The notes under the pieces were generated by a model. The model saw only the letters and a list, made by a program, of their open reading frames with translations, did not search any database and was not told where the DNA came from. From the IMG/VR virus record IMGVR_UViG_3300009104_000121, positions 1-24,435 of that record: a stretch of DNA of 24,435 nt; one strand, written 5' to 3'. This document shows, one piece after another, positions 12,208-19,434 of this stretch. The translations under genes and the position numbers were made by a program. Position 1 is the first letter of the stretch. Every line of letters starts with the position of its first letter. This DNA is from a virus.

Positions 12208-13628
12208 TGGTCATTCCATCCAGTGAAATTCAATGTTACTGTTTGTTTTTTAGCTAAGTTGGGTCGATACATTGCCATCATAAGTGCATCACCCATATTC
12301 GGAGATGGTAGCTGGTAGGGTTTTTTCGCCATGTCTATCTTAGACATTATCTGGATTTTACCCGTGTTATTTCTCTTCAGCGGTATTCTACACACTTCAG
12401 AGCGTAATTGGTCAAGGTTTTCTATTTTACTTGATAAACTAATTAAGTAATCAGGGTCAATATATTCACCCTTCACTGCTCTATAAGTATTTTCAAATCT
12501 GTCTCGCAACCTCCACCAATATTGCGCTCGCTTATTGAAAAAGGTCTCTCTGTTAGTTTTATTTCTTGTTCTGCCTCCATCAGTGTAAGGCCGGTCAGGT
12601 TCTTCAACAGACTCAGAGCCTTTAAACATAATGTATTCAACTTTCTTATCAGTTAAAGCAGAGTCAACCTGACGTTTTAAGCTAACTCCTAATCCATCTG
12701 CATCCCACACAAAATAATCACACCTGAATTCCAGGGCTTTATCAATCGCCCAATCCATTCCCTCTGCTGCGTCACCTGTTACTTTCTCACTCACATCTAA
12801 GATTACATTTCCATGCCTGACTGCAAAACCCTTACTGTCACCGCCTTCATCACTGGGGTCATGGCTGGCTATTATTGCGCCTTCTTGCTTAATGCCGAGT
12901 TTCTCATGGGAGTCTACAGCCGCATCAAACCAATCCACTGGGATAATTGTATCCTCAACCTCATCGTAATATTCGCCCTCCCAGATATGTCGATAAAGGG
13001 CAGTAGGCATAGTCTCTTTGTCATGCAGCCTTTCAGACTCTAAGACTTCGGGGAACATCTTATTATCATCATGATTAATCCAGACAATCAGATGCAAATC
13101 GTCTTCATAGTAACCGTCTCGCCTTAGCTCTTTCTCGTAAGGCTTTATAAATCGCTGGCTAAACGGGTCAACCGATGACCTCGGATTCCCGCTGAACCAT
13201 ATCTCTGAATCTTCCAGCCTTAATGTAGGGGTCAAAGCCTTGAGGCTGTTAAAGCTAATAGTCTGTGCCTCTTCCACCCAGAATCTTTCAAAGCCGTGCA
13301 TAGACTTAACACCGTCTGTGTTCCTGGCTAATCCTCGGAACTTGAAAGCTGGTTCATTGTTGAAAAGTATTTGATTATGCTGAACTTCAAAGCCAGTAAG
13401 CTCAAGTCTTTCTATTTCATCTCGTAAAATAGCCATTACGCTATCGTCTATAGAGGATTGAAACTCTCGGAAACAGGCGGTTTTGATTCCTTGGGTTTGG
13501 GCTGCCATCAAGCAGCAGTCAGCAATGGTCATTGACTTGCCACTGCCTCTTCCACCGATAGCAACCTTAAAGCGTTTCGGAGTTTTAACCAGGGGCAGCA
13601 GCTTCCTGGGTATACTCATCTCTAGCAT
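12204..13628 (-). CDS. terL: Terminase large subunit (Sf6 gp2-like packaging ATPase/nuclease)
   Basis: This is a 474-residue motor that pumps DNA into the procapsid and cuts concatemers. The ATPase domain has Walker A G25-GRGSGK-S32, Walker B FWVEE with the catalytic Glu pair at 119-120, and a coupling SGNPRS motif. The RNase H-like nuclease begins IIASHDPSDEGGDSKGFA, close to Sf6 gp2 (VVSAHDPSDTGPDAKGYA), with further acidic sites in YFVWDADG and GDALMMAM. MFKGSES and a basic NKRAQYWW stretch also match Sf6. The family is Terminase_3/PBSX-type, with headful packaging in its best-known relatives. The ATG overlaps the nuclease stop (ATGCTAG); MSIPRK three codons on is an alternative start. Confidence 0.95.
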   Translation of the reverse strand: MLEMSIPRKLLPLVKTPKRFKVAIGGRGSGKSMTIADCCLMAAQTQGIKTACFREFQSSIDDSVMAILRDEIERLELTGFEVQHNQILFNNEPAFKFRGLARNTDGVKSMHGFERFWVEEAQTISFNSLKALTPTLRLEDSEIWFSGNPRSSVDPFSQRFIKPYEKELRRDGYYEDDLHLIVWINHDDNKMFPEVLESERLHDKETMPTALYRHIWEGEYYDEVEDTIIPVDWFDAAVDSHEKLGIKQEGAIIASHDPSDEGGDSKGFAVRHGNVILDVSEKVTGDAAEGMDWAIDKALEFRCDYFVWDADGLGVSLKRQVDSALTDKKVEYIMFKGSESVEEPDRPYTDGGRTRNKTNRETFFNKRAQYWWRLRDRFENTYRAVKGEYIDPDYLISLSSKIENLDQLRSEVCRIPLKRNNTGKIQIMSKIDMAKKPYQLPSPNMGDALMMAMYRPNLAKKQTVTLNFTGWNDQ

Positions 13629-14107
13629 TGTTTAATCAATCTCGTTTTAATTTCGGTTATGTCTCTTAACTCTTCTCTTGGAATGACATGATTTATTATT
13701 TCTCTGGGCCATTTTCTAGGCTCTTTAGCCAATAAAGCCGCGCCCCAAGACCAGCCAACAATGCCGCACTTTTTCGTTTCTTTATCACAATGCACTAAAA
13801 CATAGATACATCGTTTTTTGACGAATCCTTGCTCGACTAATAGTGAGCGACCGATAGCAGAAGTTTTAACGTCTACAGCAATATCTTCAATTTCGCCTTT
13901 AACAAGTAACGGTAAGCTAAAGTCTTTGCCGCCATCCCCTCTCGGTTTAAAAGATAAATCAGCGCACACATTAAATTGCTCGGCAAAGCATTGCTCCCCC
14001 AGTATGCCTATTTCAGTGGTGTTATCCCCTAAGAATCTTTGAAATCTACCCGTCTTGCTGTGCCTGGAATCTCTCCTTTCCGCTATAGCCACAGCCCATT
14101 CAGTCAT
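13622..14107 (-). CDS. PD-(D/E)XK-type nuclease-like protein between the terminase genes
   Basis: This 161-residue protein shows the core pattern of a PD-(D/E)XK endonuclease fold: an N-terminal helix with G37-E38 (ILGEQCFAEQF), RGDGGKDF with Asp62, a strand, then DIAVDVKTS with Asp79 and Lys81. These match the E...D...(D/E)xK catalytic set of Holliday-junction resolvase and restriction-endonuclease-like proteins. It lies between terS and terL and overlaps both neighbours' cistrons, so it is made with the packaging machinery. Possible roles are trimming or resolving DNA for packaging or degrading host DNA; the sequence does not say which. A start at 14107 overlaps the 56-residue gene by 8 bases. 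Confidence 0.7.
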   Translation of the reverse strand: MTEWAVAIAERRDSRHSKTGRFQRFLGDNTTEIGILGEQCFAEQFNVCADLSFKPRGDGGKDFSLPLLVKGEIEDIAVDVKTSAIGRSLLVEQGFVKKRCIYVLVHCDKETKKCGIVGWSWGAALLAKEPRKWPREIINHVIPREELRDITEIKTRLIKQC

Positions 14108-14270
14108 AGGTATGTTTACTCATATTGATAGCATTACGCTGTTTCTCTGCCCCTGCCCTGGAGCTATGCCCACCACCATCGATGGCAGTGCCTTTGCTGT
14201 TCTTTGCTATGCTTCCGCTTGGCTCAACTAACCTGAACTTCTTACCCCTTTTTGCTATCGCTAGTGGCAT
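14100..14270 (-). CDS. Small basic phage protein (56 aa)
   Basis: This short gene overlaps the 3' end of terS by 29 bases and the nuclease start by 8. It encodes 56 residues: MPLAIAKRGKKFRLVEPSG, IAKNSKGTAIDGGGHSSRAGAEKQRNAIN and a short tail. The pattern, a basic strand pair (GKKFRLVEP) followed by a helix with A-E-K-Q-x-x-A-I-N, occurs in small phage proteins of unknown function. GGAG lies 6 nt before the ATG, a good ribosome site. The tight overlaps on both sides support that it is translated. Confidence 0.7.
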   Translation of the reverse strand: MPLAIAKRGKKFRLVEPSGSIAKNSKGTAIDGGGHSSRAGAEKQRNAINMSKHTYD

Positions 14271-14646
14271 CGTCTTCTCCCATTATTCTTATCTTCCAGA
14301 CCAGTGGTTCGTCATCAGCACCAACCAGCTCATGGCGGTCGGTCTCTTTCCAGCCAGCCTGAGTCTTTAAGTAAAATATTGCAGCGGTGGTGTTACCGTC
14401 CTGCGCTTGCATCACAAGGTTATTAGCCACATTTGCCACTGCCTTTCCTTTGGCCTTTTTATAGAGTCCAGAAACTTCCTCATCCTCTTTCAACAATTCA
14501 AAGAATTTAGACCTGCTAATACCTATGGTGTCAGCTAACTGGTCGGCTGTTAGATAAGGCGCGAGCGTTCCTACTTCTGCTAACTGCTCTTCAGTCAACA
14601 CTATCTTAGGTCTGCCACCACCTTCGCCCTGCTTGCCATTCTTCAT
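14242..14646 (-). CDS. terS: Terminase small subunit
   Basis: This 134-residue protein is the likely DNA-recognition subunit of the packaging terminase. After a Gly-rich start and GRPKIVLTEEQ, it has a helix-turn-helix segment (YLTADQLADTIGISRSKFFELLKED), then a helical stretch AKGKAVANVANNLVMQAQDGNTTAAIFYLKTQAGWKETD, which is the classic small-terminase pattern (phBC6A51-like), ending in acidic residues. It is the first gene of the packaging operon, two genes before terL. The 124 bases upstream contain a large inverted repeat. Confidence 0.85.
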   Translation of the reverse strand: MKNGKQGEGGGRPKIVLTEEQLAEVGTLAPYLTADQLADTIGISRSKFFELLKEDEEVSGLYKKAKGKAVANVANNLVMQAQDGNTTAAIFYLKTQAGWKETDRHELVGADDEPLVWKIRIMGEDDATSDSKKG

Positions 14647-14710
14647 AAGACACGCCTTATTCTGTGAGTTATCACATAGGTTTAAAAATGGGAATTATTC
14701 TAATGTAGGT

Positions 14711-14761
14711 GACTTGCAGCATAATGCCCTCCAGTGAGGTACAACCATTATGCCACAAGTC
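14711..14761 (-). other. 16-bp inverted repeat / RNA hairpin upstream of terS
   Basis: The left arm GACTTGCAGCATAATG (14711-14726) and right arm CATTATGCCACAAGTC (14746-14761) are inverted with 14 of 16 bases matching. In a minus-strand RNA the two mismatched positions become tandem U-G and G-U wobbles, so the 16-bp stem is continuous. In plus-strand RNA they would be A-C mismatches. The 19-nt loop contains a further CCTC-n4-GAGG hairpin. There is no T-tract after it. It begins 10 bases past the stop of the preceding gene and lies 65 bases before terS. It may be a processing site, a terminator of another kind, or a packaging signal. Confidence 0.75.
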
Positions 14762-14770
14762 TGGGGAAAT

Positions 14771-15082
14771 CTATAAGAGGTCTTTCTGCTCGCCCTTCAC
14801 ACAGCGTAGTTCAAAGAAGTCTCTATGCTTAGGGTTCTGCTTCATCCAGTGCCTGGCGTAGTACGCCGTGTGGTTGTTGTTGAGGTCAAAATCCTGATTC
14901 TTGTTTCTTAGCGGGTCTTTAATAACATAAAGTGTTTGCCAGCGTATCTGTTCCCAAATCGCTTTGGCTCCGCATTTCTTACCAGCCTTAATGACCTGGC
15001 ACGTAAACTTATCAAACAAGTCATAAATATGCGGGTTGTTCTTATGGAACTTTAGCCATTGTTCATACAATTCGTTATCCAT
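14771..15082 (-). CDS. Conserved phage hypothetical protein (103 aa)
   Basis: The protein has 103 residues if it starts at ATG 15082, chosen because AGGAG lies 6 nt upstream and the ATG is coupled to the preceding stop as TAATG. A TTG-initiated version five residues longer is less likely. It has an N-terminal helix (MDNELYEQWLKFHKNNPHIYDLFDKF), IWEQIRWQTLYVIKD, then NNNHTAYYARHWMKQNPKHRDFFELR. That last pattern, NNHTAYYARHWM...P...FFELR, is common in phage hypothetical proteins. It contains many aromatic and basic residues. The function is unknown; it is the last gene before the inverted repeat and terS. Confidence 0.75.
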   Translation of the reverse strand: MDNELYEQWLKFHKNNPHIYDLFDKFTCQVIKAGKKCGAKAIWEQIRWQTLYVIKDPLRNKNQDFDLNNNHTAYYARHWMKQNPKHRDFFELRCVKGEQKDLL

Positions 15083-15628: not shown

Positions 15629-16531
15629 TTAAGCTGCCTTGAGTTGTGTTCGTTGATTGGCTGTGTAGTATCTTTGTATTTCTCGACCTAACCACTCCCC
15701 CCAAACTGTTGGCACTCCATTACCGATTATCTTATAGGCGTCCGTATCATTGACGGAATCAAAGCTAAAACTCTCCGGTATTCCCTGGAGTCGCGCATAC
15801 TCTCTAACCGAGTACGGCCTTACACCCATTGGAAACCTTGAGTCTGCAAGCAGTCGTGTGCTTTTGTCTTTTGCATAATGAGCTACACAAGTTGGCGCGA
15901 TATCACCTTTTACCGGGTCACTAATGATTGGCAAATCTCTGTATTTGCCTTTCATTCTTTGTCTAATGGCTTTGGGCAATGTCACCCTGGGATTCGTTTC
16001 GATAATGTCAGCCAGAGATTTTCTGCTGCTAACTGCCGGTGGTTGCCAGTTGAATTGATTGCGTGAGCCAATCAGAATAATGCGCTTCCGCTGTTGTGGT
16101 AAAACGTCTGCTGCCTGTAATGGGCAAAACGCTTTTACAAAGTAGTCGGGTAATGAAGTCATTGCTTCCATCACGACAGGGAATTTACGCATCCCCATAA
16201 CATTCTCGACGATAAAAATATCTGGCCTTGCTATTGCCATGTGCCGGAAAGCGTGTAAGAAAAGTTCATCACCAGTTCTAACACCGTGAATGTCTCCCGC
16301 TGTTGAATACTTGGTGCATGGATAGGTAAATGCCATAACGTGAGCCGAATCATCAGCAACAAGTTTTGTCGTGATGTCGCATTGTTTGACATGATTACCC
16401 AGATTTTCTTGCTGAACCTTACAAGCAGCAGCGTCTATCTCGTAGCTGTTCTGCAAAGTTAAGCCACCCTGGATAAGTCCGGCATCGAAAACGCCGCCTC
16501 CTGAGAAGTAACTATTACAAGTAATATTCAT
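15629..16531 (-). CDS. DNA (cytosine-5) methyltransferase
   Basis: This 300-residue enzyme transfers a methyl group from S-adenosylmethionine to C5 of cytosine in a specific DNA site. Motifs in order are I (YFSGGGVFDAG, residues 8-18), IV with catalytic Cys72 in YPCTKYSTAG (the usual PPC has become YPC), VI ENV (109-111), VIII QQRKR (146-150), IX PYSVREYARLQGIPESF and X KIIGNGVPTVWGEWLG. The target-recognition region between VIII and IX is about 70 residues, which is short. No partner restriction enzyme with matching specificity is visible, so it is probably a lone enzyme that protects phage DNA or alters regulation. It is the second gene of the operon driven from the promoter at 16856-16884. 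Confidence 0.9.
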   Translation of the reverse strand: MNITCNSYFSGGGVFDAGLIQGGLTLQNSYEIDAAACKVQQENLGNHVKQCDITTKLVADDSAHVMAFTYPCTKYSTAGDIHGVRTGDELFLHAFRHMAIARPDIFIVENVMGMRKFPVVMEAMTSLPDYFVKAFCPLQAADVLPQQRKRIILIGSRNQFNWQPPAVSSRKSLADIIETNPRVTLPKAIRQRMKGKYRDLPIISDPVKGDIAPTCVAHYAKDKSTRLLADSRFPMGVRPYSVREYARLQGIPESFSFDSVNDTDAYKIIGNGVPTVWGEWLGREIQRYYTANQRTQLKAA

Positions 16532-16550: not shown

Positions 16551-16820
16551 TTACGCAGCCTCCCTTAATGTTGCTGTTGTAACTTCTTTGATATTTGTGT
16601 GCGCCCTTATGAATTGTGCGCTTAGTTTAGCTCTTACTGCTTTCATGTCTAAGGTGCTACGTTCTGCTACTGTGACCGTTAGGACATGGCTTTCACCTTC
16701 ATATTTGCCTGGGCCTTGAGCTTTGATTTCTGCTATTAGCTTCTTTTCTTCTTTCTGAAGCTCAGCTACTGCTGCTTTAAGTTCGGCCAATTTATTAACT
16801 GTATCTCTGAAGTCTTGCAT
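16551..16820 (-). CDS. Small coiled-coil phage protein
   Basis: This 89-residue protein begins with a heptad-type coiled coil (TVNKLAELKAAVAELQKEEKKLIAEIKAQG), then PGKYEGESHVLTVTVAERSTLDMKAVRAKLS and FIRAHTNIKEVTTATL. The second half matches a widespread small phage protein pattern (YEG...V.VSERETLDM.AVRAKLS...F...HT). Its function has not been recognised; Gam-like or Gp157-like roles were considered without support. ATG has AGGGG 7 nt upstream. It is the first gene downstream of the promoter at 16856-16884 and precedes the methyltransferase. Confidence 0.75.
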   Translation of the reverse strand: MQDFRDTVNKLAELKAAVAELQKEEKKLIAEIKAQGPGKYEGESHVLTVTVAERSTLDMKAVRAKLSAQFIRAHTNIKEVTTATLREAA

Positions 16821-16855: not shown

Positions 16856-16884
16856 ATTATGCTCTTTTCCCCCTTTGATGTAAA
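16856..16884 (-). promoter_or_regulatory. Sigma70-like promoter for the 89-aa/methyltransferase operon
   Basis: On the minus strand, -35 TTTACA (plus positions 16884-16879) is followed by a 17-base spacer and -10 CATAAT (16861-16856), each with one mismatch to consensus. The predicted start is near 16849, about 30 bases before the ATG at 16820. The -35 box lies inside the palindrome 16878-16898, so a bound regulator would block or alter its use. Confidence 0.6.
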
Positions 16885-19069: not shown

Positions 19070-19361
19070 AGTAGGAATCAGCTTAAAAATAGACGTTACA
19101 AAAATCGAGAAAGAACGACTCTATGAGGGCGCAAAAGGTAAGTACCTCGATGCTACTACCTTTGTAGACCTCGATGAGGTCGACCAATATGATAACTCAG
19201 GGATGATTACCCAGGATGTTTCAAAGGAAGAGAAGGACGCTGGCGTAAAAGGCCCAATTCTAGGAAACTGTAAAGTTTTCTGGAAGTCTGATACCCAGGC
19301 TAAAACTCCGGCTCCGGCTCCAGCTCCTGAAAAGTCTTTTGATGATGATATTCCATTCTAA
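19062..19361 (+). CDS. Phage single-stranded DNA-binding-like protein
   Basis: This 99-residue protein begins MSKVGISLKIDVTKIEKERLYEGAKGKYLDAT, then FVDLDEVDQYDNSGMITQDVSKEEKDAG and GNCKVFW; this beta-rich pattern is found in small ssDNA-binding proteins of marine and other phages. After a linker of Pro/Ala pairs (TPAPAPAPEK) it ends DDDIPF, the acidic hydrophobic tip that SSB proteins use to recruit partner enzymes. It overlaps the annealase gene, supporting joint action on single strands. Two leftward-reading hairpins follow its stop. Confidence 0.8.
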   Translation: MSKVGISLKIDVTKIEKERLYEGAKGKYLDATTFVDLDEVDQYDNSGMITQDVSKEEKDAGVKGPILGNCKVFWKSDTQAKTPAPAPAPEKSFDDDIPF

Positions 19362-19389
19362 AAAAAACCCCTTCCCGAAAGAAGGGGTT
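19360..19389 (-). terminator. Intrinsic terminator, leftward orientation
   Basis: The stem AACCCCTTC (19366-19374) and GAAGGGGTT (19381-19389) has 9 bp with a 6-base loop. On the minus strand it is followed by a U run (A8 at 19360-19367 on the plus strand), which is a textbook intrinsic terminator. In the plus direction the tail is only UUCUCU, so it would end rightward transcripts poorly. Confidence 0.75.
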
Positions 19390-19402
19390 CTCTAATCAAG
19401 GG

Positions 19403-19434
19403 AAAAAAAATGCTCATGGCCTAGAGCAATTTTA
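19403..19434 (-). terminator. Second leftward hairpin with U8 tract
   Basis: TGCTC (19411-19415) and GAGCA (19424-19428) form a 5-bp stem with an 8-base loop; on the minus strand it is followed by U8 (A8 at 19403-19410). The stem is short, but extends with A-U pairs after one mismatch. In the plus direction the tail AUUUUAU is weaker. Confidence 0.5.

Follow-up and report, generated by a model that had tools for sequence, protein, structure and literature searches.

What does the hairpin do that separates the terminase small subunit gene (terS) from the gene upstream of it in this viral genome, and is it kept as DNA or as RNA? The window, meaning the whole stretch of 24,435 nucleotides that was analysed (IMG/VR record IMGVR_UViG_3300009104_000121), holds this hairpin and its two neighbours as follows:

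14711–14761, minus strand: whole hairpin; in the RNA the 5′ arm is 14746–14761 and the 3′ arm 14711–14726, with a 19-nt loop; kept in seven relatives
14771–15082, minus strand: upstream gene, phrog_13625 (E 3.4e-22), ending in a stop 9 nt ahead of the stem
14242–14646, minus strand: terS, terminase small subunit (phrog_309, E 2.5e-17), with its own AAGG at 14655–14658

The original prediction, that the two arms form a continuous 16-bp stem only in the leftward transcript, agreed with folding. The leftward (minus-strand) RNA gave the stem without interruption (MFE −26.1 kcal/mol, z −3.07), whereas the rightward (plus-strand) RNA had two internal mismatches in the stem (−19.8 kcal/mol, z −1.08). 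Scanning both strands of the window (G-U allowed, loop 3–60) revealed no second uninterrupted 16-bp stem. The whole 24-kb strand, shuffled with dinucleotide frequencies preserved, contained on average 0.18 such stems, and 8/60 shuffles had at least one, so that the hairpin is only mildly unusual and, from one genome alone, weak evidence. Judged by sequence comparison, it is the conservation in relatives that makes the hairpin real.

A Rho-independent terminator was ruled out, as already proposed, because no U tract follows the hairpin; the site was also absent from the terminator-scan list. An Rfam scan of the window returned 0 matches at the gathering score. Elsewhere in the window, a long A/T-flanked inverted repeat between plus-strand genes (19351–19404) is a likely terminator.

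The hairpin element was found in 7/7 IMG/VR relatives whose contigs span the site. A core pattern search of IMG/VR matched nine contigs, seven of them being the window’s relatives, and a looser gapped version of the pattern, run against 2.9 million viral contigs, retrieved these seven and no others. Owing to the variable lower stem, a pattern covering all 16 bp with the outer arms fixed matched nothing. Where the contig includes the terminase large subunit gene (terL), terL of the relatives was 86–92% identical to that of the window; the L140 contig ends before terL, and its kinship was established via terS (68%) and ParB. Another close relative, L056, had no copy, but its contig stops short of the expected place. 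Searching with a covariance model of the element recovered it once in each record, on the sense strand; among the more distant relatives covered, the model picked up only the unrelated pattern hits. These pattern matches (L134, L137 and L168) were discarded, two lying in open coding frames and the third being another hairpin. The unrelated viral contig L168 carries at 1071–1117 a strong perfect hairpin with an ATG in each arm and GGGAGGTCATTATGG in the 3′ arm, another possible hairpin occluding a ribosome-binding site (RBS). No similar DNA was found in phage records at blastn sensitivity, and the exact core pattern had no match in bacterial genomes. A terL search of bacterial genomes detected only two loci of one gammaproteobacterial MAG, both without the element.

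The alignment comprised eight sequences (the window and its seven relatives) in two clades, and thus few independent covariation events. Ten core stem pairs were invariant in all eight. The lower stem differed between the two clades with pairing partly retained, including compensatory changes at two pairs (C-G to G-C and G-C to A-U). At pair 17-63 the clades differed, one having C-G and the other G-C; pair 15-65 was G-C or A-U and unpaired in three sequences, and pair 21-59 was U-G or U-A. Lower-stem pairing failed at two pairs in five sequences, at one in three and at one in two. The covariation score of 0.127 was matched by 0/500 shuffles and by no slid register; control measures counting pairs or pair types did not rise above the shuffles. 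The wobble asymmetry, i.e., G-U pairing in the sense RNA only, was retained at one pair in 8/8 sequences and at the other in 3/8. The covariation supports RNA pairing and falls short of proof, because there are only eight sequences in two clades. Both the compensatory changes and the asymmetry speak for the earlier view that the structure is maintained as RNA in the sense direction.

The earlier interpretation, correct about RNA-level selection and about the hairpin not being a terminator, overlooked that the 3′ arm and the loop next to it carry an RBS and a start codon:

14720–14722, minus strand: start codon ATG within the 3′ arm; the homologous ATG opens a ParB-like ORF in L135, L136, L139, L140 and L141
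14728–14732, minus strand: Shine-Dalgarno GGAGG in the apical loop, 5 nt 5′ of the ATG; read from the sequence, invariant in 8/8
14737–14740, minus strand: ACCU opposite the Shine-Dalgarno (anti-SD of the nested hairpin), invariant in 8/8; predicted folds pair it partly with GGAGG

In long RNA, the predicted accessibility of the ATG was 0.001 for all eight sequences, and opening the stretch from the Shine-Dalgarno to the AUG was predicted to cost 14–20 kcal/mol. For RNA beginning at the conserved A of ACCU, a predicted transcription start, the accessibility was 0.39–0.71 and the opening cost 5–8 kcal/mol, again in all eight; the Shine-Dalgarno was still partly paired in this predicted short RNA. 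The hairpin start of the window had an opening cost of 17.6 kcal/mol, compared with 1.8–13.0 kcal/mol for 30 other putative starts in the window. For ParB-like starts outside the clade, the cost was at most 12.6 kcal/mol. Going by these folding models, such occlusion is special to this clade among the ParB-like starts examined. What characterizes an RBS-sequestering leader hairpin was found here: a buried start (predicted), evolutionary conservation (in a small sample) and a real gene behind the start in five relatives. The hairpin is therefore likely a conserved RBS-occluding element, the occlusion being well supported computationally.

A regulator could instead bind the inverted repeat as double-stranded DNA, an operator or promoter dyad in which the RNA fold is incidental. 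The core arm sequence is invariant and the repeat sits at a module boundary, and I-TevI of phage T4 likewise has an operator over its late promoter (PMC2988022). The dyad is, however, imperfect as DNA precisely where the sense RNA pairs by G-U, the lower-stem sequence varies with pairing partly retained, and the ATG and the Shine-Dalgarno are placed precisely in stem and loop. We regard this explanation as very unlikely.

Which gene the occluded start belongs to is seen in the relatives. In L135, L136, L139, L140 and L141, the hairpin ATG opens an ORF of 169–250 codons, starting MLELTYRAINTL or similar. Two of three ORFs tested scored above the cut-off for the ParB N-terminal domain (Pfam PF02195) and one just under it, and the ORF matched a ParB-like PHROG (E 8.5e-63). 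In these five genomes the hairpin lies 1.2–2.1 kb upstream of terS, behind a different upstream gene than in the window. The same position in the window has only a short ORF:

14672–14722, minus strand: stub ORF MLQVTYIRIIPIFKPM*, 16 codons; probable remnant of the ParB-like gene start, its ATG homologous to that of the relatives

The window’s two closest relatives, L138 and L003, have a 29-codon stub in place of the ParB-like gene, ending in ATGA so that its stop overlaps the terS start; their orthologues of the phrog_13625 gene are 87–88% identical to that of the window. Ungapped similarity between stub and ParB N-terminus gave a shuffle P of 0.009–0.05 for the window and 0.0003–0.003 for L138, and the likeness goes beyond the ML which the stem itself fixes. 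A conserved peptide was ruled out, because the window and L138/L003 differ in a 10-bp repeat, which puts their stubs in different frames. The similarity of the stub to the ParB start suggests that the ParB/Srx-domain gene was probably lost in the window lineage, and that this brought the hairpin beside terS. The direction would then be loss rather than gain. An outer relative, L070, has a ParB gene upstream of terS. The terL tree groups nine sequences and is compatible with loss as well as gain, because most outer terL relatives (66–73%) have no ParB just upstream. The present function of the hairpin in the window is uncertain, the locked ORF there being only a stub.

Two other ORFs near this region deserve mention. 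Between terS and terL (13622–14107, minus strand) the window encodes a protein of 161 amino acids, present also in the ParB-carrying relatives (55–58%) and absent from L138 and L003. Pfam and PHROG searches with it gave no match; on visual inspection, its sequence shows a PD-(D/E)XK-like pattern (GDGGKDF ... DVK), and it is perhaps a mobile endonuclease. Upstream of the hairpin region there is a DNA methyltransferase gene (15629–16531, minus strand; phrog_116), apparently of the C5-cytosine type.

The history of the ParB-like gene bears on the roles first proposed for the hairpin. In the window the hairpin lies between the phrog_13625 gene and terS, adjoining terS only because the ParB-like gene is absent there. 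Control of terS translation, through overlap of stub stop and terS start or through reinitiation, would fit the ATGA of L138 and L003. In the window, however, the stub stops 25 nt before terS, which has its own AAGG, and the distance in the five relatives weighs against it as well, making this reading highly improbable; terS control may be a side effect limited to one lineage. Because the element goes with the ParB-like start and can be as far as 2.1 kb from terS, both terS regulation and a packaging signal were ruled out as its main role. For an RNase III processing site, an mRNA 3′-end stabiliser, a separate non-coding RNA or a packaging signal, one could point to the stable 16-bp stem right after a stop codon in the window. 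The element tracks the ParB-like start and neither terS nor the upstream gene, which varies between clades, and the Rfam match is absent. No positive evidence was found for RNase III processing or a non-coding RNA, and to this group of roles, several of which had been put forward originally, we give almost no credence.

The 5′ arm, which hides the start codon in the RNA, may also have a role as DNA, as it holds a candidate promoter:

14747–14755, minus strand: extended −10-like sequence TGG-CATAAT (TGGCATAAT) in the 5′ arm, invariant in 8/8; putative function
14740, minus strand: predicted transcription start, an A after a 6-nt discriminator, invariant in 8/8; placed by promoter geometry

The spacing from TGGCATAAT to the invariant A is 6 nt, and 5 nt in two sequences (A at +7, and at +6 in those two). 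The two wobble positions coincide exactly with the TG of TGGCATAAT, and the opposite strand reads CAGCATAAT at the −10 site, without a TG. By a post hoc estimate, the TG would result from about 1 of every 28 ways of placing two wobbles. The two wobbles may thus reflect an extended −10 promoter rather than RNA structure alone. The pattern TGN[TC]ATAAT occurs once on the minus strand of the window, with 1.24 occurrences expected by chance, and part of CATAAT follows automatically from its complementarity to ATTATG. No good or clear −35 box was seen for the candidate. We put the chance of a promoter within the stem at about even or slightly better.

Further upstream, a good sigma-70-like promoter (TTTACA-17-CATAAT; 16856–16884, minus strand) precedes the ORF at 16551–16820 and is a candidate source of read-through transcripts. 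From this promoter to the hairpin, the scan detected nothing terminator-like on the minus strand.

An RBS-occluding hairpin could also work without an embedded promoter if a protein, temperature or ribosomes coming from the upstream gene opened the lock; CATAAT would then merely be the complement of ATTATG. The structural evidence (ParB start, covariation, accessibility and opening cost) needs no promoter, the −35 box is missing, and 9 nt separate the stop of the upstream gene from the stem. Left unexplained are the position of both wobbles on the TG and the invariant A 5–6 nt downstream. We consider this version rather unlikely.

Our preferred reading, to which we assign a probability of roughly 0.6, is that the hairpin is a cis-acting translational lock, probably with an extended −10 promoter in its 5′ arm, that was built for a ParB/Srx-domain gene since lost in the window lineage. 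On long leftward RNA reading through from the early genes, the stem would bury the start codon and the loop would hide the Shine-Dalgarno, so that the ORF starting in the stem would stay silent; the structure and its conservation are computed, and the silencing would follow from them. In RNA initiated at A14740 the 5′ arm would be missing, leaving the ATG exposed and the RNA translatable. The RNA start site would thus decide whether the ORF is read. The lock would have served a ParB/Srx-domain gene heading the packaging module, as still present in the five relatives. In the window lineage only a stub from the first codons would be left, with the lock and the possible promoter now just before terS.

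Locks of this kind are known from phage T4. For T4 gene e, the long early transcripts are folded and produce lysozyme in roughly 100-fold lower amounts, the late promoters being located in the DNA that encodes the 5′ strand (PMC3014915). The window hairpin would resemble this leader in that RBS and AUG are predicted to be hidden in long RNA, a candidate promoter sits in the 5′-strand DNA and short transcripts would escape. Unlike gene e, which has TATAAATA late promoters and gp55, the window candidate is an ordinary extended −10, and the target is a ParB-like gene or its stub instead of lysozyme. The T4 late promoter TATAAATA is absent from the window hairpin, which would therefore work like the T4 element and stand outside that T4 set. 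In T4 I-TevI and its relatives, read-through RNA keeps the RBS sequestered, and a late promoter lies beside or inside the hairpin (PMC2988022). The hairpins of T4 I-TevI, I-TevII and I-TevIII, SegB and Aeh1 MobE share with ours the sequestered RBS and a promoter next to or inside the hairpin, late in theirs and a candidate here. They differ in locking homing endonucleases; no endonuclease is locked here, and the window lineage lacks the locked gene.

The gene order has a parallel in phages with ParB/Srx-domain genes close to where the packaging module begins, such as Psychrobacter phage vB_PmaS_Y8A, whose ParB-like gene also comes after early genes and ahead of terS, in Y8A shortly after antitermination protein Q. 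The other ParB-like starts examined, unlike those of this clade, are without the hairpin. Tentatively, and with more doubt than confidence, we suggest that an unrelated phage group evolved a T4-like promoter-in-stem lock based on an ordinary extended −10. After the gene loss, the lock would have been retained because transcription of the packaging operon had come to start there, and the stub of 16 or 29 codons would now be a leader before terS. If so, one stretch of DNA would be promoter, anti-start strand and coding start at once, and a lock that outlived its gene would offer a small natural experiment on why such elements persist. T4 is known to time a gene by concealing the start site on early read-through RNA, and this strategy would then have evolved in a different group of phages as well, at the boundary between early and late genes.
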